This document shows, one piece after another, positions 2,591-18,176 of a DNA stretch of 29,116 nt. The stretch spans positions 20,890 through 50,005 of IMG/VR virus record IMGVR_UViG_3300030333_004295, one strand, 5' to 3'. This DNA is from a virus. A program made the position numbers and the translations under genes. Every line of letters begins with the position of its first letter. Within the stretch, counting starts at the first letter, position 1. The notes beneath the pieces were generated by a model. That model saw only the letters and a program-made list of their open reading frames with translations. It did no database searches and was not told the DNA's origin.

Positions 2591-4777
2591 ATGGCAGAAA
2601 ACGATAATACATTTATAGACAACGCAGATAATGTCTTTTTTGGAGATATTGAAGGCGAACAAGGTAAAGCTCTTTTACTTGAAGAAGATCAAAAATTAAA
2701 CTTAGTAGGAATTATACAAGATCGTTTTTCAGATGCAGAAACTGCAAGAATTTCTCATGAAAGCAGGTGGCTAACAGCTTATAGAAATTACAGAGGTTTA
2801 TACGATAAAAAAATAAGATTTAGAGAATCAGAAAAGTCTAAAGTATTTGTAAAGATTACAAAAACAAAAGTTTTAGCAGCTTTTGGACAGTTAGTTGAAG
2901 TAATTTTTGGAGCAAATAAATTTCCTATTGGAGTTAAAGAAACAAAAATGCCAGAAGGAATAGCAGAGTTTGCACATTTAGACACTCAAAATCCAACTCC
3001 AGGAATAGAAACAAGCATTGCACAAGAAGAAGATACGATTGAAAGTCCTTTTGATGTCGGATATGAAGGAGACGGAAAAACTTTAAAACCAGGAGCTACT
3101 TTTAACTCTGGTAAATTTTTAGAAGAAGAAGCAGCAGATGTTTTAGTTGAAGGAAGTAGTCCTCTTCCTGATCAAATAGAAATTAAACCTGCTCAAAGAG
3201 CTTCTAGAAGAATGGAAAAATTAATCCATGATCAGATAGAAGAGTCAAAAGGATCTTCAGAAATAAGAAATGCTTTATTAGAAGCTGCTCTATTAGGAAC
3301 AGGAATTGTTAAAGGACCATTTAATTTTAATAAAACTCTTAGTCGTTGGGATGAAGGAGAAGATGGAGAAAGGACTTACGCTCCTGTAGATGTTAGAGTA
3401 CCTAGAATAGAATTTGTAAGTGTTTGGGATTTCTTTCCTGATCCTTCAGCAACAAACATAGAAGAATGTGAATATGTTCTTCATAGACACAAATTAAACA
3501 AAAGTCAGCTTCGTGCTTTGCGCAAAATGCCTTATTTTGATAAAGACGCTATCAGAGAAGCACTTATGTTAGGCGCTAACTATGAAGACAAGTATTACGA
3601 TACTCAACTTCGTGATGATGAACAAGACAAATCATACGGATCAGATAAATATGAGGTTCTTGAGTATTGGGGAATAATGGATGCCGAGTATATGCGAGAA
3701 GCAGGTGTCGATGTTCCTGACAGCATAGATGATTTAGACGAAGTACAAATTAATGCTTGGGTTTGTAATGGTCAACTTCTTAGGGTTGTAATTAATCCTT
3801 TTACACCACACAGACTTCCGTATCATGCTTTTCCTTTTGAAAGAAATCCTTATAGTTTCTTTGGTATTGGTGTAGCAGAAAATATGGATGATGCTCAACA
3901 GATTATGAATGGCCATGCTCGTATGGCAATTGACAATCTAGCTTTAGCAGGATCTTTGGTGTTTGATGTAGACGAATCAGCACTTGTAGGCGGTCAGTCA
4001 ATGGAAATATATCCTGGAAAAATATTCCGCAGACAAGCAGGAATGCCAGGACAAGCAGTACACGGTTTAAAATTTCCTAATACATCAACAGAAAACATGA
4101 TGATGTTTGACAAATTTAGACAGTTGGCAGATGAGCAGACAGGTATTCCTAGTTATTCACACGGACAAACAGGAGTGCAAAGTATGACAAGAACTGCTTC
4201 TGGTATGTCAATGCTACTAGGTGCAGCTAGTCTAAACATTAAAACAGTTGTAAAGAATTTAGATGATTTCTTATTAAAACCTTTAGGTGAAGCATACTTT
4301 CAATGGAATATGCAATTTATGGAAGGTAAATTAGGAATCGAAGGAGATTTAGAAGTTAATGCTATGGGAACAAATAGCTTGATGCAAAAAGAAGTAAGAA
4401 GCCAAAGGTTGACAATGTTCTTACAAACTGCACAAAGCCCTGCTGTTGCACCATTTGTTAAGATTTCTAAATTAGTAAGTGAACTAGCCTATAGTTTGGA
4501 TCTTGATCCTGAAGAAATACTCAATGATCCAGAGGAAGCAGCTATTATGGCACAAATTATAGGAATGCAAAATGTTGGACAAAACACTGGCAACGAAACT
4601 GCTGCCGTTGGTGAACAACCGAATCCTATGGGAAGCCCTGCTGGAACACCTCAACAACCGCAAGACGTTGGAGTTACAGGCACTGGTGGTGGCAACATCG
4701 GAATTGGAAATGTACCGCAGTCAGGGGAAGATCAATTCTCTGGCACAATTAGAGCAGTTGAAGGAACAAGTGGCTGA
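2591..4777 (+). CDS. Portal protein (head-tail connector)
   Basis: This is the 728-residue portal subunit that forms the dodecameric ring at one capsid vertex, through which DNA enters and leaves. Recognisable stretches are WLTAYRNYRGLYDKKIRFRE near residue 60, the central FERNPYSFFGIGVAENMDDA, and QQIMNGHARMAIDNLALAG. These are typical of the long (about 700 residue) podovirus-type portals. The length is close to the P22 portal and much longer than T7 gp8. Residues 675-728 are a Gly/Pro/Asn-rich low-complexity tail. It begins 3 bases after the terL stop without a clear ribosome site. A second open frame (+1) overlaps the last 200 bases. Confidence 0.9.
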   Translation: MAENDNTFIDNADNVFFGDIEGEQGKALLLEEDQKLNLVGIIQDRFSDAETARISHESRWLTAYRNYRGLYDKKIRFRESEKSKVFVKITKTKVLAAFGQLVEVIFGANKFPIGVKETKMPEGIAEFAHLDTQNPTPGIETSIAQEEDTIESPFDVGYEGDGKTLKPGATFNSGKFLEEEAADVLVEGSSPLPDQIEIKPAQRASRRMEKLIHDQIEESKGSSEIRNALLEAALLGTGIVKGPFNFNKTLSRWDEGEDGERTYAPVDVRVPRIEFVSVWDFFPDPSATNIEECEYVLHRHKLNKSQLRALRKMPYFDKDAIREALMLGANYEDKYYDTQLRDDEQDKSYGSDKYEVLEYWGIMDAEYMREAGVDVPDSIDDLDEVQINAWVCNGQLLRVVINPFTPHRLPYHAFPFERNPYSFFGIGVAENMDDAQQIMNGHARMAIDNLALAGSLVFDVDESALVGGQSMEIYPGKIFRRQAGMPGQAVHGLKFPNTSTENMMMFDKFRQLADEQTGIPSYSHGQTGVQSMTRTASGMSMLLGAASLNIKTVVKNLDDFLLKPLGEAYFQWNMQFMEGKLGIEGDLEVNAMGTNSLMQKEVRSQRLTMFLQTAQSPAVAPFVKISKLVSELAYSLDLDPEEILNDPEEAAIMAQIIGMQNVGQNTGNETAAVGEQPNPMGSPAGTPQQPQDVGVTGTGGGNIGIGNVPQSGEDQFSGTIRAVEGTSG

Positions 4778-4808
4778 AGCTACAAGTAGAAAAGAAGAGG
4801 AGAAATAA
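4572..4808 (+). CDS. Possible small protein in the +1 frame overlapping the portal 3' end (uncertain)
   Basis: A frame shifted +1 from portal stays open from ATG 4572 to TAA 4806-4808, coding up to 78 residues. Its natural-looking part is the end: LAQLEQLKEQVAEATSRKEE, an acidic/basic amphipathic coiled coil. An internal ATG at 4710 would give 32 residues. The portal stop at 4775-4777 lies inside it, and its 3' end contains the AGAGGAG ribosome site (about 4795-4801) of the next gene. It could be a real small overlapping gene, an extension of portal reached by +1 frameshifting, or chance. The portal frame itself reads as ordinary Gly-rich tail, so I rate the overlapping gene as possible only. 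Confidence 0.25.
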   Translation: MLDKTLATKLLPLVNNRILWEALLEHLNNRKTLELQALVVATSELEMYRSQGKINSLAQLEQLKEQVAEATSRKEEEK

Positions 4809-5801
4809 ATGGCTACAGGAATAAAAAGCATTATAAGTAATATGCTTCCTAGCTTGTATAAAAACGTAGGTAAAACAGAAGCAAAAAATCCTTTAGATTT
4901 TGGATACGATCCTTCTTTTATGTATCAGCCTAGAATTAAAAAAGCAACAGGAAAAGAAGTTATTGAAGGACAATTACAACCTAGAACCGAAGACGGATAT
5001 ACACAATATGAGCTAGAACTAGGAGAAAACGTAGATAAAAGTTTAAAAAACTATATTGGCGCTCCACAAGACATGATAGACAATGCTATTACTCAGATTT
5101 ACAAAAACGCTTCAAGAACTGGTTCTTTTGCTGAACAGTTTACTGAAGAAGATGTTAGAAACAGATTTAATCAGTTAGCAGAAGAGGCACAAAGACAACA
5201 AAAACAAGAAGGCGGTGAAGTAGAAGATCAGATGGGCGATCTTATGATGATGGAAGAACAAGAAGAAATGCCAATGCAAGAAGAGCCTATGCCTGAAATG
5301 TTGCCTGATGAAGAAATGGAAGAAGATTATATGGACTTTGTGATAAATGAATCACTAAGTCAAGAAGAAGAAGATTATTTATTTGAAAAACTTAACGAAG
5401 ATGAGATGTTAAGTGTAATTTTTGATAAAGTAATTGAAACAGCTTCAGAATTTTCAGGTGCTGGCCCTGTTGAAGGACCAGGATCTGGAGTATCAGATTC
5501 GATACCTGCAAGGTTATCGGATGGAGAGTTCGTTATGACTTCTAAAGCAGCTAACCAAATTGGTCCTGAGAACCTACAAGGTTTGATGGAAGTAGCCGAA
5601 ATGGAAGCTGATGAAGAAATGAGACGAACAATGCAGGTTGGTGGATATGTAAACGTAGAGGAAGAAGAAGACGAAGAAATAGTTCGTTCTGTTCAGCCTA
5701 AAGAACGACAAGGTAGTTTAATGCCTAAGTCTTTAGCTGATAAAAAAGTGAGCGAATCTATGATTGCTTTGAATCCTCGTAATTCACTATTCGTCTCCTA
5801 A
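4809..5801 (+). CDS. Acidic virion-associated protein with DSIPARLSDGEFV motif
   Basis: A 330-residue protein of unknown precise function lying between portal and scaffold. Residues 140-180 are extremely acidic and Met-rich (repeated MEEQEEMP-type runs). Residues 223-241 read GPGSGVSDSIPARLSDGEF, followed by VMTSKAANQIG. This motif is shared, as I recall, by many marine phage virion or tail-associated proteins that carry it as a module. The C-terminus has another acidic run (about 285-292) and a basic end. The AGAGGAG ribosome site at 4795-4801 is strong. The neighbours suggest a minor head or assembly component; a protein that protects or assists scaffold assembly is an alternative. The function is not proven. 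Confidence 0.7.
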   Translation: MATGIKSIISNMLPSLYKNVGKTEAKNPLDFGYDPSFMYQPRIKKATGKEVIEGQLQPRTEDGYTQYELELGENVDKSLKNYIGAPQDMIDNAITQIYKNASRTGSFAEQFTEEDVRNRFNQLAEEAQRQQKQEGGEVEDQMGDLMMMEEQEEMPMQEEPMPEMLPDEEMEEDYMDFVINESLSQEEEDYLFEKLNEDEMLSVIFDKVIETASEFSGAGPVEGPGSGVSDSIPARLSDGEFVMTSKAANQIGPENLQGLMEVAEMEADEEMRRTMQVGGYVNVEEEEDEEIVRSVQPKERQGSLMPKSLADKKVSESMIALNPRNSLFVS

Positions 5802-5959
5802 TTAACCGTAGAGCCACCTGTCCTAGTCAGACAGCCCTCTACATTTTAAAAAAGTAAAATACCTTTTGATGCCACCTTACTTGGGAAAGCACTTATAAAG
5901 AAGACGTTCTTGGAATAAGCCACCTTCGGTAGAGTAAGCACAAAGGAAGGAGAGTAAAA
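5802..5959 (+). promoter_or_regulatory. Structured untranslated leader before the scaffold gene
   Basis: This is the longest non-coding gap between structural genes (158 bases) and is less AT-rich than its surroundings. It holds a two-part hairpin: GTAGAG (5808-5813) with CTCTAC (5837-5842), and inside it CTGTC (5818-5822) with GACAG (5830-5834). GCCACCT occurs three times (5813, 5871, 5919), and GTAGAG recurs at 5929. A small AAGAA/TTCTT hairpin lies at 5898-5911. It ends in a strong AAGGAAGGAG ribosome site. No T-run follows the main hairpin, so it is not a classic terminator. A promoter for a phage polymerase, an RNA processing site or a translation control element are all possible. Confidence 0.45.
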
Positions 5960-6856
5960 ATGACTGAAAATGAAAATGTAGCTTCTACAGAAGAAGCACA
6001 AAATGAACCAGTACCTAATCCGTACAACATGAGAAAATCATGGCATACGGAAGATGTTATGCCTAAAGCAGGTTTATCTGCTGACAGTTTATTTGTTGAA
6101 CCTAGAGAAACTAAAAAAGTTGAAGAAGGTGATCAACAAGTAGAAGAACAACCAGTAGAAAAAACTAAACCTTATTCACAGCCTAACTATAAAAAAAGGT
6201 ACGATGACTTGAAAAAGCATTACGATAGTAAGCTTAATGAGTTTAGAAGCAGAGAGCAAGAACTTATTCAAGAAGCAACCGCTTCACGACCTGAGTACAA
6301 AGCTCCAAAAACTGTCGAAGAACTTGAACAATTTAAAGCACAATATCCTGATGTTTATGATGTGGTTGAAACTGTTTCACACTTACAAAGTGAAGCCAAA
6401 GTTGAAGAATTAAATTCTAAGATTGCAGCTTTACAAGAAAGAGAAGCAGCAGCCCTAAGAAGAGAAGCAGAGTCAGAGCTTTATAATAAGCATCCTGATT
6501 TTTCAGAACTTCGAGATAGTGATGAATTTCACAATTGGGCCAAGACTCAACCAGAAGATATTCAAGCATGGGTTTATAATAATCCTAACAATGTTAGTTT
6601 AGCAAGTCGAGCAATTGATTTATTTAAACAGGACATGGGATTAGCTTCTAATGAGAAAACACAGACTCAAAAGAAGTCTAAGAGTTCAAGCTCAACGGCT
6701 GCGGACATGGTATCTACAAAGACTACAACGATAGATGCTACAGCAGAACCGAAAATTTGGACTCAAGAGGAGATCGCAGCACTACCTATGGATGAGTTTG
6801 ATCGGCTCGAAGCAGAGATCGATAAAGCTCTTGAAGAAGGTAGGGTTCGTGGTTAA
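5960..6856 (+). CDS. Capsid scaffolding protein
   Basis: This is a 298-residue, highly charged protein directly before the major capsid gene, the usual scaffold position. The length is close to the scaffolds of P22 (303) and T7 (307). The N-terminal 90 residues are acidic and Pro/Gln-rich (disordered). Residues 80-175 contain long helical coiled-coil stretches (KKRYDDLKKHYDSKLNEF; EELNSKIAALQEREAAALRR). Then comes a globular-looking HPDFSELRDSDEFHNWAK motif. A Ser/Thr/Lys linker and a charged C-terminal helix (FDRLEAEIDKALEEGRVRG) follow, as expected for a coat-binding end. A strong AAGGAAGGAG ribosome site precedes ATG 5960. No protease motif is visible. Confidence 0.85.
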   Translation: MTENENVASTEEAQNEPVPNPYNMRKSWHTEDVMPKAGLSADSLFVEPRETKKVEEGDQQVEEQPVEKTKPYSQPNYKKRYDDLKKHYDSKLNEFRSREQELIQEATASRPEYKAPKTVEELEQFKAQYPDVYDVVETVSHLQSEAKVEELNSKIAALQEREAAALRREAESELYNKHPDFSELRDSDEFHNWAKTQPEDIQAWVYNNPNNVSLASRAIDLFKQDMGLASNEKTQTQKKSKSSSSTAADMVSTKTTTIDATAEPKIWTQEEIAALPMDEFDRLEAEIDKALEEGRVRG

Positions 6857-6889
6857 AGTATAACTATTAACATTTAAAGGTGACTTAAA

Positions 6890-7888
6890 ATGGCTTATAA
6901 TCAATCGGACGCTTTATTTGAGCAATCGACTGATACTAATGGTAACTTTGGCAACTCCGTAACTGGACAAACTAATGCATTCTTCATGCCTAAGGTTTAT
7001 TCCAAGAAGGTACTTAACTTTTTTAGAAAAGCCTCAGTAGCAGAAGCAATCACTAACACTGATTATGCAGGTGAAATTACAGCTTACGGAGATACTGTAC
7101 GTATTATCAAAGAACCTGAGATTACTGTTTATCAGTATGAAAGAGGTGCAGATGTTACTCAGACCAAACTTACTGACATGGAAGAAACCCTTACTGTTGA
7201 TGTCGCTAACGCTTTTAAATTCAAAGTAGATGACATTGAGAAATCTATGTCTCACGTAAACTTCAAAGAGGTCGCATCCTCTTCTGCAGCTTACGCTCTT
7301 AAAGATGCTTTTGATGAAGGTGTTATTGCTGAATTGTTTAGTGGTGTCTCAACTTCTTCACCTGATCACGTATTAGGTGCAGACGCTTCTGCTGCTACTC
7401 AAACAATGGGGCAACATCAAGGCGGTTCTAACTCTATCGACCTTACTGGTTCTGATGGTACTGGAACTGATCCTCTTGATGTAATGGCATTTATGGCTAG
7501 ATTGTTAGACGAGCAAAACATTCCTGAAGAAGGAAGATGGTTTGTCGCTCCTCCTTCGTGGTATGAGCAACTGTCTCAGTCTGGTTCAAAATTAATGTCA
7601 GTCGACTTCAATGCAGGGCAAGGTTCTATCCGTAATGGACTAGTATCAAGTGGAAAGCTGCGTGGTTTTGATATGTACAAGTCTAATAACATTGCTGCTG
7701 CTTCTACAGCTAGTGGTAAATGTATAGCTGGACATATTTCTGCCTGCGCTACTGCACAAGCTATTACACAAACTGAGGTTCTTCGTGATCCTGACAGTTT
7801 TGGTGACATCGTTAGAGGTCTTCACGTCTATGGCGCTGATGTACTTCGTAGCGAAGCTTTAGTATCTGCTTTCTATGCAATTGACTAA
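6890..7888 (+). CDS. Major capsid protein
   Basis: The 332-residue shell subunit, expected to adopt the HK97 coat fold. Typical elements include an N-terminal arm (NAFFMPKVYSKKVLNFFRKA), the early beta strand with ITAYGDTVRIIKEPEI, and a segment resembling the long helix after LTVDVANAFKFKVDDIEKSM. A C-terminal part with GLHVYGADVLRSEALVSAFY follows. Its length is like the T7 coat and shorter than the P22 coat. It follows scaffold by 33 bases, with an AAAGGTGA ribosome site (about 6876-6883) suited to high expression. A strong GC-rich hairpin directly downstream may shape its mRNA level or stability. Coat identity is firm from scaffold-coat order and sequence character. Confidence 0.92.
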   Translation: MAYNQSDALFEQSTDTNGNFGNSVTGQTNAFFMPKVYSKKVLNFFRKASVAEAITNTDYAGEITAYGDTVRIIKEPEITVYQYERGADVTQTKLTDMEETLTVDVANAFKFKVDDIEKSMSHVNFKEVASSSAAYALKDAFDEGVIAELFSGVSTSSPDHVLGADASAATQTMGQHQGGSNSIDLTGSDGTGTDPLDVMAFMARLLDEQNIPEEGRWFVAPPSWYEQLSQSGSKLMSVDFNAGQGSIRNGLVSSGKLRGFDMYKSNNIAAASTASGKCIAGHISACATAQAITQTEVLRDPDSFGDIVRGLHVYGADVLRSEALVSAFYAID

Positions 7889-7911
7889 TCGTTAATTAAA
7901 GCAATAAAGGT

Positions 7912-7948
7912 GTGTGGGAAGGACATATTATAAGTTCCTTCCCCATAC
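7912..7948 (+). promoter_or_regulatory. GC-rich hairpin after the major capsid gene
   Basis: GTGTGGGAAGGA (7912-7923) pairs with TCCTTCCCCATAC (7936-7948): 12 pairs including one G-T, one bulged C, and a 12-base loop. It is much more stable than the surrounding AT-rich DNA. The bases after it are A-rich rather than T-rich on the coding strand, so it lacks the form of an intrinsic terminator. It may be an mRNA-stabilising or processing hairpin that sets coat transcript levels. Confidence 0.6.
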
Positions 7949-7967
7949 TCAAAAAAAAAGGAAAAAA

Positions 7968-8144
7968 ATGCCACAAATATCAACAGATGCAAGACCTATT
8001 ATTTTAAAGAATAAGAAAAAAGGCAATAGAAAATTAGTAAGTGCAGGCAATAGAATGACTGCTCAAGAAAGAAAAACATACAATAAGAATTTTGACAGGA
8101 TTTTTGGAAAAACCCAAAAGAATTATAACAGACAAAAAGGATAA
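7968..8144 (+). CDS. Small basic protein of unknown function
   Basis: A 58-residue Lys/Asn-rich protein starting MPQISTDARPIILKNKKKG and ending GKTQKNYNRQKG. I chose ATG 7968, which has an AGGA site (7959-7962) at proper spacing. The longer frame beginning with GTG at 7914 would run through the hairpin at 7912-7948, and its extra residues look artificial. It opens a group of three very small basic proteins between the coat and tail-adaptor genes. In other phages that place often holds head-decoration or hypothetical proteins; no family is recognised here. A role in the virion or in DNA binding is only suggested by charge and position. Confidence 0.65.
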   Translation: MPQISTDARPIILKNKKKGNRKLVSAGNRMTAQERKTYNKNFDRIFGKTQKNYNRQKG

Positions 8145-8146
8145 AC

Positions 8147-8302
8147 ATGTACTATAGTAAAGATAAAGATAAAAGAAAAAAAATGAATAAAGGCACTCCT
8201 AAAAGAATGGCTTATAGTGATGGTGGAGTTGTTCAATATGAAAACATAGAAGATAAAGTTGAAAAGTGTACTGCCAGAGTTGGTATGAACACAATGAAGT
8301 AA
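8147..8302 (+). CDS. Small basic protein of unknown function
   Basis: A 51-residue protein (MYYSKDKDKRKKMNKGTPKR, then MAYSDGGVV...), ending ARVGMNTMK. It starts 2 bases after the previous stop and stops 1 base before the next ATG, exactly fitting the coupled gene run. The basic N-terminus followed by a SDGGVVQYEN stretch resembles the 'GGVV/GGRV' segments seen near the N-termini of several marine phage virion proteins, including the MRQGGRVALA of the gene at 15897; that is my reading, not a proven homology. There is no membrane segment and no recognised domain. Confidence 0.55.
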   Translation: MYYSKDKDKRKKMNKGTPKRMAYSDGGVVQYENIEDKVEKCTARVGMNTMK

Positions 8303-8303
8303 T

Positions 8304-8450
8304 ATGAAAGTTAAAGCACCAAAAGGATACCACTGGATGAAATCTGGTAAGTCTTATAAATTAATGAAAGATCCAAAAGGAGGATATAAACCTCATAAAG
8401 GAGCGAGCAAACAAGCAAATTTTGCAATACAAAAGGTTCATAAAAAATAA
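8304..8450 (+). CDS. Small basic protein with KAPKGYHWMKSGKSYKLMK motif
   Basis: A 48-residue protein: MKVKAPKGYHWMKSGKSYKL, then MKDPKGGYKPHKGASKQANF, ending in AIQKVHKK. From memory, closely similar short proteins recur in many marine phages near structural genes, always without known function. The compact pattern of aromatic and basic residues looks like a small conserved fold rather than a random frame. Its stop overlaps the ATG of the tail-adaptor gene (TAATG at 8448-8452), so it should be co-translated with that gene. Confidence 0.65.
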   Translation: MKVKAPKGYHWMKSGKSYKLMKDPKGGYKPHKGASKQANFAIQKVHKK

Positions 8451-9211
8451 TGGCAACTACTTATTTACAATTAACGAATGAGTTACTAAGAGAATCAAAC
8501 GAAGTTGTTTTAACTTCTTCTAATTTTAGCAGTGCTTTAGGAATTCAGGCCCACGTTAAAGATTGTGTTAATAGGGCTTATAATGATATAGTAAGCGCTG
8601 AACCTAGATGGTCTTTTCTTGCTACAGGAGAAAGCGGAGATACAGATCCTTTTTATGGAAATGTGTATGTTGAAACAACAGCAGGAACAAGGTGGTACGA
8701 ATTAAAAGCAGCATCAAGTTCAGTTACAACTGATTATGGTGCAATAGATTGGAATGATTTTTATTTAACAACTATTGGAGTTAGTGGTGCATCAACACCT
8801 TATACAAGTAAGAATTTATCTTTTGTAACATTAGAAGAATGGAAAGACCATTATAGAGAATCTGAAAATATAGACGATGCAGATACTCAAACATATGGTG
8901 AACCTAAAGTTGTTATAAGAAGTAAAGACGGTAGAAAGTTTGGATTAAGTCCAATACCTGACAAAGTTTATAGAGTGTGGTTTTTTGCTTGGGATTTACC
9001 TACAGCACTAGATGCACACGGAGATACAATAGTATTTCCTGACATGTATAGTTCAGTATTATTAGCAAGAGCTAGATATTATATGCATCAATTTAAAGAC
9101 AATCCACAGGCAGCAGCTTTTGCATTAGACGATTATAAAAAAGGATTAAGAAAAATGAGATCTAATTTAATGAATCCTGCGCCTAAGTATATGTCAACGG
9201 ATCAAATATAA
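8450..9211 (+). CDS. Tail adaptor / tail tubular protein A-like
   Basis: A 253-residue protein with the character of the adaptor that binds below the portal and begins the short tail (T7 gp11 / P22 gp4 type). It has an N-terminal helical part (LTNELLRESNEVVLTSSNFS, then HVKDCVNRAYNDIV). A beta-rich middle with aromatic residues (WSFLATGESGDTDPFYG; GTRWYELKA) follows. The C-terminal helical part reads FPDMYSSVLLARARYYMHQF and ends in a basic helix. It follows the coat group and directly precedes the nozzle protein, sharing TAATG overlaps at both ends. The adaptor assignment is based on order, length and fold-like pattern; exact family membership was not checked. Confidence 0.7.
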   Translation: MATTYLQLTNELLRESNEVVLTSSNFSSALGIQAHVKDCVNRAYNDIVSAEPRWSFLATGESGDTDPFYGNVYVETTAGTRWYELKAASSSVTTDYGAIDWNDFYLTTIGVSGASTPYTSKNLSFVTLEEWKDHYRESENIDDADTQTYGEPKVVIRSKDGRKFGLSPIPDKVYRVWFFAWDLPTALDAHGDTIVFPDMYSSVLLARARYYMHQFKDNPQAAAFALDDYKKGLRKMRSNLMNPAPKYMSTDQI

Positions 9212-10848
9212 TGACTGCTTCTCAACCTTTTGCATTAGCTTGTAGTGGAGGATTAGATAAGTCTTCAAGTTCTTTTGAAATGTTAAGAACTCCTGGTTCT
9301 GCTACATTGTTAGAAAACTTTGAAGTTGATATTGCTGGAGGATATAGACGAGTAAATGGTTTTTCAGCTTTTGGAGGAGGAAGCGCAGCAAATCCAAGCA
9401 GTGAAGACGATATATTAGGTCTTCATGTTTACGCTGATGGAGTTATAGCTTGTTCAAGTACTAATATATATTTTAGTTTAGACGGAACAAGTTGGTTGCA
9501 AATAAATAGAGCAAGTGTTTCTGGTAGTGGAGATAACTATAGTACTTTTACAGGTCGTAGTGCTTCAGCTAGAACTTCACAAAGTCTTGCACATTTTGCA
9601 ACTTATGAAGGTGATACAACTTATGGAGAAGTTATAATTACCGATGAAGGATCAGGTGTAAAACCTTTTTACTTTAAAATGACAGGAACTGGTGCATTAA
9701 GTGATCGAACTTACTACGCAAAAGAAATAACAGTAAGCGGAACACACTATCCTAAGTTTTGTACGATACACGATAGGCACTTAGTTGTAGCAGGTGCAGC
9801 AACAGCACCAAACACTATATTTTATAGTGGAACAGATGATATAGATGATTTTACATCAAGTGGTTCAGGAAGTATAGTATTAGATGATCAAGTAGTTGGA
9901 TTAAGATCTTTTCGTGATGATCTAATTATATTTTGTAAAAATAGTATTTATAAATTAGTAAATATAAACATATCGGCAAGTATTGCGGTACAGCCAATTA
10001 CACAAAATATAGGTTGTTTAGACGGAAGAAGCATTCAAGAGATTGGTGGTGACTTAGTATTTTTAGCGCCTGACGGTATAAGAACACTAGCAGGTACAGC
10101 AAGAATTGGTGACGTAGAGTTAAGTACAGTTACTAGAGCAATACAACCTGTAATGAAAAACATTGCAGATAATATTGGAAGTTATAATGTAAGTAGTATT
10201 GTTATACGAGATAAGGCACAATATCGTTTATATTATGGAGATTCTACTTCTGGAAGTTCTGCAAGAGGAATAATAGGAACTTTGAAAACAACACAACAAG
10301 GAACACAATTTCAGTGGTCTGAAACAGTTGGGATAGATGCAAGCGCTGCAGCAGTTTCAGGTTTTAACTCAAGCGGTGTTGAAAAATATTATCATGGTGA
10401 TTACAATGGAAAAGTATATAATCACGACACAGGAGATAGTTTTTTAGATTCTGGTGGATCAGCAACAAATATTATAGCTAAATATCAGACACCAGACATT
10501 GATTATGGAGACTTAGGAACTTTAAAAACTTTAAAATACGTAAAAGTTTCTATAACTCCAGAAGGAGAAGTTGATACAAGTTTAAGAATAAGATATAATT
10601 TTGATGATCTGGATAGTCCACAGCCTACAGATTATTCATTATCAATACCAAAACCTTCGTTGTTTGGAACAGCAGTTTTTGGTTCTACAGCAGGTCATAA
10701 GTTTGGAGCAGCAACAGATCCAATAACTAGACAATCAGTAGAGGGCAGTGGAAAAAGTAATTATTTTAGAATATTTAGCGATAATCAAAATTCACCTTAT
10801 ACAGTAAATGGAATATATATAGATTACGTACCTTCAGGGAGAGATTAA
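9211..10848 (+). CDS. Tail nozzle / tail tubular protein B-like
   Basis: A 545-residue beta-rich protein resembling the tail nozzle or tail-stabilisation protein of podoviruses (T7 gp12 / P22 gp10 role). Its N-terminus has SFEMLRTPGSATLLENFEVD followed by GGYRRVNGFSAFGG. That pattern, with leading loop and RVNGF-type turn, is common to nozzle proteins. Blade-like repeats follow: LGLHVYADGVIACSS; CTIHDRHLVVAG; TIFYSGTDDIDDFTS; VVGLRSFRDDLIIFCKNSIY; LVFLAPDGIRTL. These suggest a beta-propeller-like body. It is coupled to the adaptor by TAATG and sits 3 bases before the fibre gene, as expected for the piece to which fibres attach. Confidence 0.75.
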   Translation: MTASQPFALACSGGLDKSSSSFEMLRTPGSATLLENFEVDIAGGYRRVNGFSAFGGGSAANPSSEDDILGLHVYADGVIACSSTNIYFSLDGTSWLQINRASVSGSGDNYSTFTGRSASARTSQSLAHFATYEGDTTYGEVIITDEGSGVKPFYFKMTGTGALSDRTYYAKEITVSGTHYPKFCTIHDRHLVVAGAATAPNTIFYSGTDDIDDFTSSGSGSIVLDDQVVGLRSFRDDLIIFCKNSIYKLVNINISASIAVQPITQNIGCLDGRSIQEIGGDLVFLAPDGIRTLAGTARIGDVELSTVTRAIQPVMKNIADNIGSYNVSSIVIRDKAQYRLYYGDSTSGSSARGIIGTLKTTQQGTQFQWSETVGIDASAAAVSGFNSSGVEKYYHGDYNGKVYNHDTGDSFLDSGGSATNIIAKYQTPDIDYGDLGTLKTLKYVKVSITPEGEVDTSLRIRYNFDDLDSPQPTDYSLSIPKPSLFGTAVFGSTAGHKFGAATDPITRQSVEGSGKSNYFRIFSDNQNSPYTVNGIYIDYVPSGRD

Positions 10849-10851
10849 AAC

Positions 10852-13800
10852 ATGGCACAAAGTTATACAAGACAAAGTACGTTTAGTGATGGAGATACCA
10901 TTACTGCTGCATTGTTTAACAATGAATACAATCAATTAGTAAATGCATTTACATACAGTTCTAGCAGTGCTTCAAGCACAGGCCACAGACACGATGGTAC
11001 AGCAGGACATGGTGGTAATATACATACTATTGGTGATTTAGATTTTCTTAATAAAATTGTTGTAGATAGCACAAATAATCGTTGGGGAGTATTTGTAGAA
11101 GTTTCTAGTGCTGCAGTTGAGCAGATTAGAATACAAGACGGAGCTATTGTTCCAGTTACAGATAACGATATTGATTTAGGAACAAGTTCTTTAGAATTTA
11201 AAGATGCTTATTTTGATGGTACAATTACCACAGATTTATTAACAGTTTCAGGAGCAACTAATCTTGATGGTGCTATTCAAGTAGATAATACTATAACTGT
11301 TGGTGTAGATGATACTGGTTACGATGTTAAATTCTTTGGTGATACAGCTAGTGCTTACATGTTATGGGATGCTTCTGCTGATGATTTAGTATTAGCAGGT
11401 GCTGCAGGTCTAGATGTTGCAGGAGATATAGATGTTGATGGAACTTCTAACTTAGACAATACAGACATAGACGGAACACTTGCAGTAGACGGAACAACTA
11501 TTTCACTAGATGCAACAACATCATTAAATATAGACAACTCTAATACTTCTAACGGTATCACTATTGGTACTGCAACTTCTGGTGTTCCAGTTTCAATAGG
11601 TCACACAACTTCTGAAGTAACAGTAAACGATAATCTTACAGTAACAGGAACACTTACATTAGGTTCAGGTGCAGAATTAACAGAAGCTGAACTAGAAATG
11701 CTTGACGGAATTACAGCAGGAACTGTTGCAGCTTCTAAAGCAGTAGTCGTAGATTCAAATAAAGATGCAGCTTCTTTTAGAAACATTACACTTACAGGCG
11801 AACTTGATGCAGGCTCATTGGATGTATCAGGTGATGCAGATATAGATGGTACATTAGAAACAGATGCTTTATCAATTAATGGAACTGCAGTTACAGCTAC
11901 AGCAGCAGAATTAAACATTCTTGATGGAGTAACTGCAAGTGCTACAGACATTAATCTTATAGATGGCATAACAAACGGCACAGTTATAGCCAGTAAAGCT
12001 ATTATAACAGACGCTAACAAAGACATTAGTGGTGGTAGAAATATAACCATTAGTGGCGAGCTTGATGCAGCTACACTTGATATTAGTGGAGATGCTGATA
12101 TTGACGGAACTTTAGAAGCCGATGCATATACAGTAGACGGAACTGCATTAAATGAATATATTGCAGATACTGTAGGTGCTATGGTATCTTCAAATACTGA
12201 GACTAATATCACTGTTACTTACGAAGATGGAGACAACACACTAGATTTTGTAATTGGCACACTTAATCAAGACACTACAGGAACTGCTGATAATATTACA
12301 GTCTCTGCAAATAACAGCACAGACGAAACTGTATATCCAATATTTGTAGATGGAGCTACAGGATCACAAGGAGCAGAGTCTGATACAGGACTTACTTATA
12401 ATCCTAGCACAGGAGTATTAACATCTACTTCATTTACAGGTAATTTAACAGGTAATGTAACAGGTAATACAAGTGGTACAGCAGCTACAGTAACAGGAGC
12501 AGCACAATCAAATATTACAAGTCTTGGAACGCTTACAACTCTTACAGTTGATAATGTAATAGTTAATGGTACAACTATAGGACATACATCAGATACAGAT
12601 TTAATGACTCTTGCTGATGGTGTATTAACAGTAGCAGGCGAAGTATCAATGACTACGCTTGATATAGGTGGTACAAATGTTACAAGTACTGCAGCAGAGT
12701 TAAACATCTTAGATGGTGTTACAAGTACTGCAGCAGAACTAAATATCCTGGACGGAGCAACAGTTGTTGTAGGTGAACTTAATTATCTTGACTTAGGTGC
12801 AACGGCTGTCGGTACAGCAATAGCCTCTAAAGCAGTTATACTTGATTCCAATAAAGATTACACAGGTATAAGAAACTTAACCATTACAGGTGAGTTAGAT
12901 GCAGCTACATTAGACATAAGCGGTGACGTAGATATTGATGGAACACTAGAAACAGACAACCTAACAGTTGGTGGCGCACAAGGTTCTGACGGACAAGTGC
13001 TGACTTCAACAGGAAGCGGAGTAAATTGGGAAACTCCTGCTAGTGGTGGGGCTAATTCAATAAACGATTTATCAGATGCTAAAACTTTTGGTACTTCTTC
13101 AATTATGATTGGAGATGCTACTACAGGAACAATTAGTGGAGCAAATTATAATACAGGTGTAGGTGTTAATGTTTTTGAAGCCTTGACAACTGGTGATGAA
13201 AACGTAGCTATGGGTTATGCTTCTTTAAACGATTTAACAACTGGAAGTAAAAATACTACTATAGGAGCTACAGCAGGAGCAAAGATAACAACAGGTACTG
13301 ACAATACGGCTATGGGAGCCGATGCTCTTAAAAATGTAACTACAACCAATAACAGTACAGCATTTGGTAAAGGAGCTTTGTTGGCAAGTACGGCAGAAGG
13401 AAACACTGCTGTAGGAAAAGATTCTCAACTTGCAACCACTACAGGATATAGAAATGTATCGATGGGTAAAGAATCTTTAATGACTAATACTACAGGGGAC
13501 CAAAATGTAGCCATAGGAAATAATGCACTTGAGTTAAGCACAACCGCAGATAACAACACAGCACTTGGTTATAATACTTTAAATGCAACTACCACAGGTG
13601 CTACTAATGTTGCTGTCGGTTCTCAAACTTTAGCAGCAAACACAACAGCTTCGGATAATACAGGTGTGGGATATGCTGTTTTATTAGTAAATACTACAGG
13701 CGCAAATAATACTGGTGTGGGTGTTAATTCGTTACAAGCGAATACTACTGCTTCTGAAAATGTTGCGGTGGGTAAAAATACTATGCTTGCAAATACAACA

Positions 13801-15315
13801 GGCGCACAGAACGTAGCGGTGGGTGCGAATGCTTTAGACGCTAACACAACGGCAGCTAATAACACTGCTATTGGCTACAATTCTATGACAGGAAATACCA
13901 CAGGAACAGCAAACGTAGCGGTAGGTACTGCAACTTTGGTAGCTAATACAACTTCTTCAAATAACACTGCAGTTGGGTATGCAGCTTTAAACGCAAATAC
14001 TACAGGTACTTCTTTAACAGCCGTAGGTAAAGATGCTTTAATTGCAAATACGACAGGTGACAATAACATTGCGATAGGTCGTGATGCAGGACAATCAATT
14101 ACAGAAGGCTCTAATAACATTGTAATTGGTGTTGAAGCATATGAAACAGCAACTACAGCTAATGGAAACATAGCAATCGGTAAAGGCTCATTAAAAGCAA
14201 ACACAACTGGAACTGAAAATGTTGCCATAGGTCACGAAGCTGGTAATGATGTAACCACTGGTGCTGGACACACACTTATTGGTTATTTAGCTGGAGACAA
14301 AATCACAACCGCTTCTCAAAACACGGCAGTAGGCTCTGAAGCATTGGGATCAAATACAGGTGGTGGTTTAAATACTGCTATTGGTTATAACGCAATGCTT
14401 GGAAACACAACTGGTGGTGATTGTACTGCGGTAGGCGCAAGAGCTTTAGATGCAGCAAATGCAGCCGATGGTAATACTGCGGTAGGTTCAGCAGCACTAG
14501 GAGCAAATACAACTGGTGCGCAGAATACAGCTTTAGGTACTTATGCTTTGGATGCAAATACAACAACACATTACAGTACAGGTTTAGGATATGATGCGCT
14601 AACTGCTTCTACTTCGGCAGCAAATACTGGTGTGGGTGCTTATGCTGGAACAGCAATTACAACTGGGGATGGAAATACTTGTGTTGGCTTTGAAGCAGGT
14701 GATGCGATCAGTACAGGCACAGATAATGTAATGATTGGTAAAAGAGCAGGTGATGACCAAACTACAGGAAACGGAAATACAGTAGTAGGCTCAAACGGAG
14801 ATACAGGAGCAAGTGGTGCTACTGGTCGTTTAGTTCTTGGATCAACAATTGATGGTACAAGTGATGCAAGAGCAACGCTTGGATATAACGGAAATGTTGT
14901 CGAAATCGATTTGAATGGTTCAGATGAATCTTGGGCAGCATCTTCGGATGAAAGGTTAAAAGAAAATGTACAAGATGCTACAGCAGGACTTCAATTTATT
15001 AACGAACTCAGACCAATTACATATCAATGGAAGAAAAAGAAAGATGTTCCAACGGATATGCCACAGTATGAAAAAGACTCTAATGAACCGAGTGTCGGTT
15101 TAGAGTATGGTGTAGAGTATCACGGCTTTATTGCACAAGAAGTTAAAGCAGTTATAGACAAACACGATGACATAAAAGACGGTCAAAATATTTGGAAAAC
15201 AGGTGATGACGAAGTGCAAAAAATTGCAAAAGGTGGTCTAATACCAATGCTTGTAAAAGCAATCCAAGAACTCTCGGCAGAAGTCGAGCAATTAAAATCT
15301 AAAATAGAGGAATAA
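10852..15315 (+). CDS. Giant tail fibre with tandem repeats and S74 intramolecular chaperone
   Basis: A 1487-residue receptor-binding fibre, probably a trimer. Residues 1-70 (MAQSYTRQSTFSDGDTITAA; GHRHDG) form the likely tail-attachment end. Residues 70-720 are beta-rich with three 44-residue repeats (295-338, 381-424, 659-702) and TAAELNILDGV turns. Residues 767-1308 hold 32 tandem copies of a 17-residue NTAVG-type repeat resembling trimeric adhesin head repeats. Residues 1365-1487 are a peptidase S74 chaperone domain: SDERLKEN with the expected catalytic pair Ser1365 and Lys1370, then ITYQWKKK, HGFIAQEV and a C-terminal coiled coil. In this family the domain guides trimer folding and then cleaves itself off, here predicted between Ser1364 and Ser1365. 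Minus-strand open frames across it are shadows of the repeats. Confidence 0.93.
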   Translation: MAQSYTRQSTFSDGDTITAALFNNEYNQLVNAFTYSSSSASSTGHRHDGTAGHGGNIHTIGDLDFLNKIVVDSTNNRWGVFVEVSSAAVEQIRIQDGAIVPVTDNDIDLGTSSLEFKDAYFDGTITTDLLTVSGATNLDGAIQVDNTITVGVDDTGYDVKFFGDTASAYMLWDASADDLVLAGAAGLDVAGDIDVDGTSNLDNTDIDGTLAVDGTTISLDATTSLNIDNSNTSNGITIGTATSGVPVSIGHTTSEVTVNDNLTVTGTLTLGSGAELTEAELEMLDGITAGTVAASKAVVVDSNKDAASFRNITLTGELDAGSLDVSGDADIDGTLETDALSINGTAVTATAAELNILDGVTASATDINLIDGITNGTVIASKAIITDANKDISGGRNITISGELDAATLDISGDADIDGTLEADAYTVDGTALNEYIADTVGAMVSSNTETNITVTYEDGDNTLDFVIGTLNQDTTGTADNITVSANNSTDETVYPIFVDGATGSQGAESDTGLTYNPSTGVLTSTSFTGNLTGNVTGNTSGTAATVTGAAQSNITSLGTLTTLTVDNVIVNGTTIGHTSDTDLMTLADGVLTVAGEVSMTTLDIGGTNVTSTAAELNILDGVTSTAAELNILDGATVVVGELNYLDLGATAVGTAIASKAVILDSNKDYTGIRNLTITGELDAATLDISGDVDIDGTLETDNLTVGGAQGSDGQVLTSTGSGVNWETPASGGANSINDLSDAKTFGTSSIMIGDATTGTISGANYNTGVGVNVFEALTTGDENVAMGYASLNDLTTGSKNTTIGATAGAKITTGTDNTAMGADALKNVTTTNNSTAFGKGALLASTAEGNTAVGKDSQLATTTGYRNVSMGKESLMTNTTGDQNVAIGNNALELSTTADNNTALGYNTLNATTTGATNVAVGSQTLAANTTASDNTGVGYAVLLVNTTGANNTGVGVNSLQANTTASENVAVGKNTMLANTTGAQNVAVGANALDANTTAANNTAIGYNSMTGNTTGTANVAVGTATLVANTTSSNNTAVGYAALNANTTGTSLTAVGKDALIANTTGDNNIAIGRDAGQSITEGSNNIVIGVEAYETATTANGNIAIGKGSLKANTTGTENVAIGHEAGNDVTTGAGHTLIGYLAGDKITTASQNTAVGSEALGSNTGGGLNTAIGYNAMLGNTTGGDCTAVGARALDAANAADGNTAVGSAALGANTTGAQNTALGTYALDANTTTHYSTGLGYDALTASTSAANTGVGAYAGTAITTGDGNTCVGFEAGDAISTGTDNVMIGKRAGDDQTTGNGNTVVGSNGDTGASGATGRLVLGSTIDGTSDARATLGYNGNVVEIDLNGSDESWAASSDERLKENVQDATAGLQFINELRPITYQWKKKKDVPTDMPQYEKDSNEPSVGLEYGVEYHGFIAQEVKAVIDKHDDIKDGQNIWKTGDDEVQKIAKGGLIPMLVKAIQELSAEVEQLKSKIEE
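11734..11865 (+). repeat. Fibre 44-residue repeat, copy 1
   Basis: Residues 295-338 begin SKAVVVDSNKDAASFRNITL and continue through a GELDAGSLDVSGDADIDGTL block. Copies 2 (11992-12123) and 3 (12826-12957) share SKA, DxNKD, RN(I/L)T, GELDA and DIDGTLE. It probably forms a beta-structured shaft unit. Confidence 0.8.
11992..12123 (+). repeat. Fibre 44-residue repeat, copy 2
   Basis: Residues 381-424 begin SKAIITDANKDISGGRNITI and align without gaps to copy 1. They are preceded by TAAELNILDGV and TDINLIDGITNGTV, the same linker type found before the other copies. Confidence 0.8.
12826..12957 (+). repeat. Fibre 44-residue repeat, copy 3
   Basis: Residues 659-702 begin SKAVILDSNKDYTGIRNLTI and align without gaps to copies 1 and 2. 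They follow a doubled TSTAAELNILDG linker. The wider distance from copy 2 shows the three units are not a simple tandem array. Confidence 0.8.
13150..14775 (+). repeat. Array of 32 tandem 17-residue (51-base) repeats in the fibre
   Basis: Residues 767-1308 divide into 32 units, 30 of 17 residues and two of 16. The consensus is approximately N-T/V-A-V/I-G-Y-x-A-L-x-x-N-T-T-G-x-N. The alternating small/hydrophobic residues plus Gly at position 5 fit a left-handed parallel beta-roll like the YadA/Hia head. DNA identity between units is modest, so the array is old or diversified rather than freshly duplicated. Confidence 0.92.
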
Positions 15316-15896: not shown

Positions 15897-18176
15897 ATGG
15901 CAAGAAAAAGATATAATAAAGGTAATAGACTTGATATGAGACAAGGTGGTAGAGTTGCTTTGGCTAGAGGTAGTGGTCCTAAAAGAGGAAGAAATAATAA
16001 TTCTAAAGCAGAACAAGAAGTTCAAGCAGAAAGAGATCTTCAAAAAGAAGTTAAAGATAGAAATATAACAGCAGATCCTTCTCCTATGGTTTCTACACCT
16101 GCTAGGCAAGATAGGCCTGCTCCTATTAAAGATCCTGCTCAAGAAGAAATGACACCTGCTTTTGATCCGAATGTAGGTAGACCTATTCCTGATCAACCTA
16201 CTACTGAAAGTGAAACAAGAAACACAGGAGGAGGAAGACCAAGAGACAGAACTCCTAGAGGTAATGACGAAACAAAACCTCCAAAACCTCCAATTACTGT
16301 TAAAGATCCTAAAAAATATGCTGAACAAATAGCAGGAGGAAAAGGTCCGAGCGGAGAAGCAGTTATACCAGACGCTGAAAAAGTTGGTGGAATAGATCCT
16401 AAAACAGGACAACCTGTTGTTAGAGACATGAAAATAACAACCATGACGGATCTTACACCAGAACAAAAAGCACAAGCTTCTGTGGCAACTGCTCCAAGAG
16501 CAGAAACGGTTACTGCAGGAAAAGTAGCTCCTGATGTTCAAGCGCCTGCTGATGTAGAAACAGCCACTATGGAGGCTGCTCAAGTTACTGAAACACCTGT
16601 CATAGATGCACAAACTGGAGAAGTTAGTCCTCAAGCTATTGCACAAATGCAAGATGCTTCTCTTACATTATCTGCAGAAGGAATTAATGTTAATCAACAA
16701 AAAGCTGCAGATGCTTTAGTTCAAGCAGCTACAGGAACTTTAAGTCCTGAAGCAAAAGCAGAGGCTGCAAAAATAGCAGGAACTAATTTACCAAGAGTTC
16801 TTCGTGCTAAAAAACAATTAAGAAGAGCAGGTTTAAGTGAAGATCAAATTAATCTAATAGGAAACGATCCTGAAGTTTTAGAAGACGAACTTATGGATTA
16901 CAGCGAAGAAGAACGAGGAATGATCGCTGGTCTTCCTGAAGAAGCTTTAGTATCAACACAATTAAACTCTTTATTAGAAGGAATGGAATCAGGAGAAGTT
17001 CCTGTTTTTGCTAGACCTGCAGTTGCAGCAGTAAACGAAATGTTAGCACAGCGTGGATTAGATGCTTCTACAGTAGGTAGAGATGCATTGTTTAATGCAA
17101 TTATACAAAGTGCTATGCCTTTAGCACAGAGCAATGCACAGTCTATAAAAGAAAGTGTAATGTCTCAAAGAAATATTGAGGCACAAGCAGAGCAAATGAA
17201 TGCTCAAATGAGACAACAAACAGCACTTAGTAATGCTGATAAAGTCTTTAATATGGACATGACTAATCTTAATAATGAACAACAAGCAAGATTATCCAAT
17301 AGTAAGTTCTTACAAACAGTTGCTTTGACGGATGCAAGTCAAGAACAACAAGCAGTTTTACAAAATGCTGCAAATATGTCTAGATTAGATTTAGCGGAGC
17401 TTGATGCAAATACTAGGCTTTCTGCTCAGAATGCTCAAGCATTTTTAAATATGGATATGGCTAATTTAAACAATAAACAACAAACAGAAGTTTTAAAAGC
17501 TCAACAAGCTCAACAAAGAATGTTAAGCAACCAAGCTGCTAGTAATGCTGCTGCTCAGTTTAATGCAGCAAGTGAGAATCAAACAAATCAATTTATGGCT
17601 AACTTATCTTCTCAAATAGACATGAACAATGCTGCTCGTAATGATGCAATGTCACAATTTAATGCAACTCAGAACAATGCAGCAGAAGCAAGAAGAGTAG
17701 GTCTTGAAGCAGACATTTCTAAATTTAATTCACAGTTGGTTACTCAAGTAGATCAGTTTAATGCACAACAAGATTTTGCAAGAAATCAATGGAATGCTCA
17801 AAATGCAGCAGCAGTTGAAGCTTCTAATGTAGAGTGGAGAAGACAAGCAAATACTATAAATACTGCTGCACAAAATGCTATCAACGCACAGAATGCTCAG
17901 AACGCTTTTCAAATGAGTTCACAAGCTTTAGCTTTTCTTTGGCAAGAACTAAGAGATCAAGCTGATTTTGATTTTAGAGCAGCAGAAAACGAAGAAAACA
18001 GAAAAGCTCAAATTGTTGCTACAGCTTTAGCAAATGAAGGTAAAGCAGGTTCAACTTATAAAGACTATTTAACTAACATCGTTTCTAATTTTGCTGGATC
18101 TTTAACAACAGCTTATGCTACTTCTGGAGGAGGAGGAAGCTATACATCAAGACGAAGTAGTGGACCTAATCCATAA
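15897..18176 (+). CDS. Large Ala/Gln/Asn-rich internal virion protein candidate
   Basis: A 759-residue protein. The N-terminus is basic with a MRQGGRVALARGSG stretch. Residues 40-150 are Pro/charged and probably disordered, and residues 150-400 are Ala/Glu/Thr-rich. Residues 405-690 form a very long Ala/Gln/Asn-rich helical coiled coil with recurring QFNA/FNAQ steps. Two copies of an NMDM(T/A)NLNN(E/K)QQ block sit 66 residues apart (starts 452 and 518). The end (SGGGGSYTSRRSSGPNP) is flexible. Similar A/Q-rich proteins in podoviruses and marine phages are internal core or structural proteins, so a role in the internal core or ejectosome is likely (compare T7 gp14-gp16, by position). It begins 2 bases after the previous stop. 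Confidence 0.65.
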   Translation: MARKRYNKGNRLDMRQGGRVALARGSGPKRGRNNNSKAEQEVQAERDLQKEVKDRNITADPSPMVSTPARQDRPAPIKDPAQEEMTPAFDPNVGRPIPDQPTTESETRNTGGGRPRDRTPRGNDETKPPKPPITVKDPKKYAEQIAGGKGPSGEAVIPDAEKVGGIDPKTGQPVVRDMKITTMTDLTPEQKAQASVATAPRAETVTAGKVAPDVQAPADVETATMEAAQVTETPVIDAQTGEVSPQAIAQMQDASLTLSAEGINVNQQKAADALVQAATGTLSPEAKAEAAKIAGTNLPRVLRAKKQLRRAGLSEDQINLIGNDPEVLEDELMDYSEEERGMIAGLPEEALVSTQLNSLLEGMESGEVPVFARPAVAAVNEMLAQRGLDASTVGRDALFNAIIQSAMPLAQSNAQSIKESVMSQRNIEAQAEQMNAQMRQQTALSNADKVFNMDMTNLNNEQQARLSNSKFLQTVALTDASQEQQAVLQNAANMSRLDLAELDANTRLSAQNAQAFLNMDMANLNNKQQTEVLKAQQAQQRMLSNQAASNAAAQFNAASENQTNQFMANLSSQIDMNNAARNDAMSQFNATQNNAAEARRVGLEADISKFNSQLVTQVDQFNAQQDFARNQWNAQNAAAVEASNVEWRRQANTINTAAQNAINAQNAQNAFQMSSQALAFLWQELRDQADFDFRAAENEENRKAQIVATALANEGKAGSTYKDYLTNIVSNFAGSLTTAYATSGGGGSYTSRRSSGPNP
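17250..17288 (+). repeat. Coiled-coil block copy 1 (repeat at +198 bases)
   Basis: Residues 452-464 begin NMDMTNLNNEQQ. A near-copy beginning NMDMANLNNKQQ starts at 17448 (residue 518), exactly 66 residues later. The spacing is a multiple of 11 residues, as expected of a hendecad-type coiled coil or an old internal duplication. Confidence 0.6.
17448..17486 (+). repeat. Coiled-coil block copy 2
   Basis: Residues 518-530 begin NMDMANLNNKQQ and pair with the copy starting at 17250. DNA-level identity is partial, with silent differences, so the duplication is not recent. Confidence 0.6.

Follow-up and report, generated by a model that had tools for sequence, protein, structure and literature searches.

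A mosaic array of 32 predicted β-roll units in the tail fibre of a probable marine phage

The tail fibre encoded by the viral DNA analysed here carries 32 β-roll-like units of almost constant length, followed by a short tip and an S74 intramolecular chaperone. Such arrays are mosaic and differ in copy number between relatives. We propose that the array is a rigid trimeric β-roll shaft bearing a small, fast-evolving tip, and that its constant coil length lets tips recombine in register; we give this reading a probability of about 0.7. The analysed stretch, hereafter the window, is 29,116 nucleotides long and corresponds to positions 20890-50005 of an IMG/VR record of 50,005 bases.

The fibre gene and its genome

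The fibre is recognized by its open reading frame, by matches to PHROG families 4636, 23837, and 6002 (tail spike or virion structural proteins), and by PF13884. Its N-terminus recurs with 82-99% identity in at least 80 viral loci, these being the best 80 of 599 confirmed matches.

10852-15315, plus strand: tail fibre gene ending in an S74 domain, 1487 residues
10852-11250, plus strand: conserved fibre N-terminus, residues 1-133

Other searches for related loci cover the best 80 of 423, 245, 338, and 144 confirmed matches, and one more covers all 26.

The gene content of the window includes terminase, portal, and major head protein. The top ranks for the capsid protein are HTVC115P, a Pelagibacter phage (57.9%), and the marine podophage HMO-2011 (46.6%), but 385 phage records, drawn from many groups, also match below 60%. 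The N-terminus of the fibre has a match of about 51% in HTVC033P. By comparison of the capsid and the fibre with named phages, the window probably derives from a marine phage, which may be HMO-2011-like. A SAR11 host is likely, because the capsid protein is closest to that of HTVC115P and the fibre N-terminus matches HTVC033P. Among named phages, HTVC033P is closest in the fibre N-terminus and HTVC115P in the capsid; no such array is found in the one gene tested of the former or the two of the latter. A DNA_pol_A_exo1 match in the window scores 22 bits, under the cut-off of 23.6.

Two other proteins of the window are large. The 2016-residue protein at 21772-27822 has a C-terminal endolysin or FlgJ-like muramidase domain and is perhaps an ejected internal virion protein. 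The 759-residue protein at 15897-18176 has no match in PHROG, Pfam, or NCBIfam at the thresholds applied, and its relatives are encoded in 245 viral contig stretches.

The repeat array

The array comprises 542 residues, or 36% of the fibre, and parses exactly into 30 units of 17 residues and two units of 16 residues. It is delimited by the unit parse, a profile chain, and structure prediction, and the two shorter units by the unit parse.

13150-14775, plus strand: array of 32 β-roll units, residues 767-1308
13354-13401, plus strand: 16-residue unit, copy 5
14575-14622, plus strand: 16-residue unit, copy 29, fourth from the end

The unit consensus is N-[TV]-A-[VI]-G-x-x-A-L-x-A-N-T-T-G-x-x. Glycine occupies position 5 in all 30 full-length units, and the glycine columns of the units are invariant (12/12) in 80 aligned sequences. 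Two alignments were made, each including the window, A1 with 43 of 47 candidate relatives and A2 with 79 of 92; the sequences removed, by hand, were mostly duplicates or near-duplicates. The array contains 27 instances of a strict N[TVI]x[VILMF]G-type motif, compared with no more than three in any of 2000 array shuffles. The profile chain scores 986, compared with 20.8 or less over 300 whole-protein shuffles. The exact parse, the 36% share, and the failure of shuffles to reproduce the pattern confirm the first-pass annotation of a 32-copy, 17-residue array occupying more than a third of the fibre. Degenerate units flank the array (residues 750-766 and 1309-1325) and are left out of the count of 32.

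The parse also recovers the 16-residue units at copies 5 and 29 that had been noted as breaking the register, but such units are nothing exceptional: a spacing of 16 accounts for 84 of the 2275 measured across the arrays examined. The unit fourth from the end lies in the same place in L230, L231, L232, and L235, all of which are relatives of the window. As a landmark the 16-residue unit is weak, occurring at many locations, most commonly three and two units from the C-terminal end (11 and 10 cases).

The repeat exists at the protein level only. Tandem Repeats Finder reports nothing over the array, and no 17-mer of DNA occurs twice in it, the longest exact repeat being 16 nt. Since DNA identity between units averages 53% (best pair, 76%), the array is by this measure an old, diverged repeat rather than a recent tandem amplification. 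A collapsed or false tandem repeat is unlikely because the repeat is absent from the DNA level. In addition, another IMG/VR contig, L002/L150, matches the window without a difference over 22,277 bases.

Upstream of the array, at about residues 150-740 (11300-13100), the fibre contains other repeats, DISGDADIDGTL-like and TAAELNILDG-like. This part has replaced or inserted stretches even between near-identical relatives.

Predicted structure of the array

By sequence, the array matches no solved structure at E ≤ 1 and nothing over cut-off in Pfam or NCBIfam; membership of the Pfam family YadA_head (PF05658) is rejected at 11.5 bits against 25. An AlphaFold2 monomer model of units 17-32, the tip, and the S74 domain, based on the 44-sequence alignment, has a mean pLDDT of 84.4, with the array mostly at 86-95. 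In the model, each 17 residues form one regular parallel β-roll coil. A separate 12-unit model has the same pattern (mean pLDDT 80.2).

Foldseek against the PDB gives no match for the array at E ≤ 0.001, and the adhesin matches come from a second look with VIA-align. There, the structure closest to the first model is the C-terminal head of BpaC (7o23; Z 22.1, rmsd 2.9, 267 aligned), followed by curli CsgA (Z 17.7) and by the further adhesins UspA1 (16.1), CbpF (15.4), and YadA (14.6). With the 12-unit model, the top adhesin reaches Z 17.2, only somewhat more than unrelated β-helices, e.g. GlmU (14.7). A search of BFVD yields 65 matches at E ≤ 0.001, several of them annotated as S74 or intramolecular chaperone, giant-virus proteins included. 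The models and the VIA-align matches support the earlier proposal of a repetitive β-roll like trimeric adhesin heads. The non-repetitive fold named beforehand as contrary evidence is not what the monomer models gave. The array is supported as a predicted β-roll of the adhesin-head type with a longer coil.

The heads of trimeric autotransporter adhesins (left-handed parallel β-rolls; YadA 1P9H, BpaC 7o23) share with the array one coil per repeat, one invariant glycine per coil, and an N/T-rich unit. The BpaC array is also long, with 42 coils according to the part of PMC9543794 consulted. However, the period is 17 residues in the fibre and 14 in the adhesin heads (mostly 15 in UspA1), and the fibre units are diverged in DNA whereas the BpaC repeats are described as near-identical. 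The fibre further differs from trimeric autotransporter adhesins in its S74 C-terminus and its score below the YadA_head cut-off. Autotransporter identity is rejected: no C-terminal outer-membrane anchor is found, PF13884 being the only domain match in the fibre at E ≤ 1. On the models, the array is a longer-period phage variant of the known adhesin fold.

The tip and the S74 chaperone

The tip is defined by alignment and the unit parse, and the chaperone by PF13884, a Ser-Lys dyad, and Foldseek.

14776-14946, plus strand: 57-residue tip (1309-1365), from the array to the predicted cut site, beginning with a degenerate unit of 17 residues
14947-15312, plus strand: S74 intramolecular chaperone (1366-1487), with a predicted cut after S1365

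PF13884 matches residues 1365-1438 with 50.7 bits against a cut-off of 22, confirming the S74 C-terminus read in the first pass. An alignment of 44 sequences shows no variation at S1365, D1366, R1368, or K1370. S1365 and K1370, five residues apart, are spaced like S911/K916, the endoNF dyad given in the part of PMC8326128 consulted. The top Foldseek match of the S74 part is the MyRF ICA domain (probability 1.00, E 2.8e-3). With cleavage like that of known members, the mature fibre would be expected to end in the 32 coils and the 57-residue tip.

A C-terminal PF13884 domain over cut-off and the Ser...Lys dyad spacing are shared with other S74 fibres and spikes (endoNF, the T5 L-shaped fibre, GA-1 gp12). 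In these, the upstream part is a sialidase or a triple β-helix, whereas here it is a predicted 32-coil β-roll.

Counterparts also occur in cultured phages. The fibres of HTVC111P, HTVC112P, and Venkman EXVC282S and gp298 of P-SSM2 have the same class of 17-residue unit and an S74-type motif past the array. Their arrays start at residues 123, 123, 47, and 283, respectively, compared with 767 here. Their annotations go no further than tail fibre, tail spike, or FhaB-like adhesion protein. Pelagiphage fibres in metaviromic islands are described as having a conserved N-terminus, phage-specific repeats, a variable C-terminus, and in one case a YadA domain (PMC3909814); the parts of that paper covered contain no analysis of unit-level mosaicism or copy number.

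Copy number among relatives

In a set of 28 complete fibres with related N-termini, one of them that of the window, arrays run from 6 to 43 units, with a median of 27. In a wider set of 125 complete ORFs with at least eight units, the range is 8-53 and the median 28. The cultured phages have 32 (HTVC111P), 29 (HTVC112P), 32 (Venkman EXVC282S), and 26 units (P-SSM2 gp298). The copy number of 32, initially thought large, is therefore ordinary. The accompanying suggestion that it varies between relatives is borne out, the 28 fibres being far from the identical counts that would speak against it. Array length shows no significant compensation for the length of the pre-array part (Spearman -0.28, p = 0.15, n = 28).

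Some loci have two array-bearing fibre ORFs. In L008, they lie at 3125-8062 and 8070-10340, about 8 bases apart; the others are L163, L211, L255, L256, L264, L267, L268, L289, and L307. These double ORFs possibly encode paired or branched fibres.

Mosaic arrays

Judged by unit comparison, the copy-number variation looks like whole-unit block exchange between different arrays rather than simple slippage. In a set of 198 distinct arrays (reduced from 211 by removing arrays contained in another), 117 of 19,503 pairs share runs of at least three units at 80% DNA identity or more, 16 of them on more than one diagonal. Shared triplet starts number 756, compared with 0, 2, and 0 after permuting unit order.

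The window takes part in this mosaicism through its distal units, as delimited by unit comparison.

13759-14775, plus strand: units 13-32, block common to the window and L230, with shorter distal parts common to L231, L232, and L235

The match begins at unit 13 for L230, at unit 18 for L231 and L235, and at about unit 21 for L232. The distal units are 71-100% identical and the proximal units unrelated; the switch point thus differs between relatives. The close match of L234 to the window is limited to the last three units, the tip, and S74.

In comparisons of L234 with the window, L230, L231, L232, and L235, the S74 DNA (window 14776-15312) is 91-95% identical where the last eight coils are only about 60% identical. 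Tip and chaperone therefore appear to move also without the adjacent coils.

The cleanest mosaic case is L013 and L014, which are 98.9% identical across 3.6 kb upstream and have the only junction that could be located sharply. Units 1-19 are near identical (17 of 19 at 98-100% nt), and beyond unit 19 the arrays continue with 14 and 23 unrelated units, respectively. The post-array parts share only 32 nt, tips and chaperones differ, and a stretch before the array is replaced too.

Written as unit barcodes, the arrays of L346, L345, L353, L384, and L389 display whole-unit deletion, insertion, reordering, and tip swap. Relative to L346 (0-51), L384 reads 9 10 [64 65] 21-24 [66] 18-20 [60-62] 26-51, and L345 has units 0-37 as in L346 and then another end. 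Copy number, which does vary, could also be altered inside one array by slippage or by the tandem duplication of single units; this is proposed for the near-identical BpaC repeats in the part of PMC9543794 consulted, and L353 has one exact duplicate unit (16 and 24). However, just one of 107 arrays (distinct proteins, at least eight units) has an intra-array pair with a DNA identity of 90% or more, the window has no DNA tandem repeat, arrays differ by blocks of non-homologous units, and no close relatives were found whose arrays differ mainly by near-identical neighbouring units. Slippage as the main source of copy number is highly improbable.

Nearly all contigs are metagenomic and conserved motifs can misjoin reads, so some of the junctions could be chimeric. 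It is very unlikely that assembly chimeras of co-occurring phages account for the mosaics as such. The longest exact repeat in the window array, as noted above, is only 16 nt, and shared blocks are often diverged (80-98%) rather than identical. Junctions 10-64, 24-66, 66-18, and 20-60 each occur in more than one contig, with the same junctions in contigs of different metagenomes.

Cultured phages argue against chimeras as well. HTVC111P and HTVC112P, from the same host strain, are 86-88% identical in the flanks, 90.7% before the array, and 75.9% after it, and have no unit pair at 80% DNA identity. Array turnover is thus seen without metagenome assembly, and in this pair the difference may reflect fast divergence in place.

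Block exchange is not confined to the array. Seven same-locus pairs share an upstream gene at 96% identity or more. Of these, two have the same array, one breaks inside the array, and four share no run of three units, so exchange also occurs before the array; several of the pairs already diverge there. A literature search, judged mostly by titles and the openings of abstracts, found no paper on in-register exchange of β-roll units in phage fibres.

Selection on the array and the tip

By dN/dS, the array is under purifying selection: the orthologous array of the window and L230, L231, L232, and L235 gives 0.16-0.27. The tip gives 0.43-0.99 in three of these pairs. Among 81 pairs listed by S74 identity of 75-98.5%, 12 have their last eight units at least 75% identical; pooled over these 12, the ratio is 0.22 for the last eight units, 0.55 for the tip, and 0.20 for S74. 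In all 14 pairs listed for the window's family, the tip ratio lies above those of the array and of S74, though these pairs are non-independent owing to shared sequences. By these ratios, the tip before the predicted S74 cut site evolves faster than the array in the window's family. Outside this family, the pair L217/L053 has 0.07 for the tip and 0.68 for the last eight units, and fast tip evolution is not universal.

Adhesin β-rolls bind collagen or CEACAM. The array itself could accordingly be a receptor-binding surface along the roll, with coil exchange altering specificity directly. CbpF, one of the top matches, has been solved bound to CEACAM1 and CEACAM5 (structure titles), the exposed-looking columns vary strongly between units, and the low dN/dS of orthologous units fits a conserved surface. 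Against this, the tip outpaces the array in the window's family. Moreover, HTVC111P and HTVC112P share no unit at 80%, and their common host therefore demands no single array sequence. We consider a binding role of the array unlikely.

Discussion

We favour a shaft with an exchangeable tip. Beyond the predicted fold, we infer the trimer, the cleavage, the rod length, the role of the tip, and the function in crossover. In a homotrimeric tail fibre, the array would form the distal shaft, with 17-residue units that each make one parallel β-roll coil. With one coil per unit, 32 units would give a rigid rod of about 15 nm (32 × 4.8 Å, the rise measured for BpaC). The S74 domain would trimerize and fold the fibre and then cut itself off after S1365, leaving the 57-residue tip at the end of the rod as the likeliest receptor-contact part in this family.

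Because all coils share a fold and a nearly equal length, different fibres could recombine at almost any coil with the rod unbroken. Such in-register crossovers would swap tip and chaperone between phages, and the coil number would shift by whole units as a by-product. More tentatively, and at somewhat less than even odds, the β-roll array may be a general crossover ladder for distantly related marine phages, the repeat being kept for interchangeable host-recognition parts and length change being a side effect.

Tail fibres decide which cells a phage infects. The repeat unit is a readable barcode by which each homologous coil can be traced from phage to phage; metagenomes therefore allow a direct count of fibre swaps, crossover points, and length changes. 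Should the shaft tolerate exchange in register at any coil, this would account for the movement of tips between phages of abundant marine bacteria, and fibre length and tip identity could be tested separately in cultured pelagiphages.
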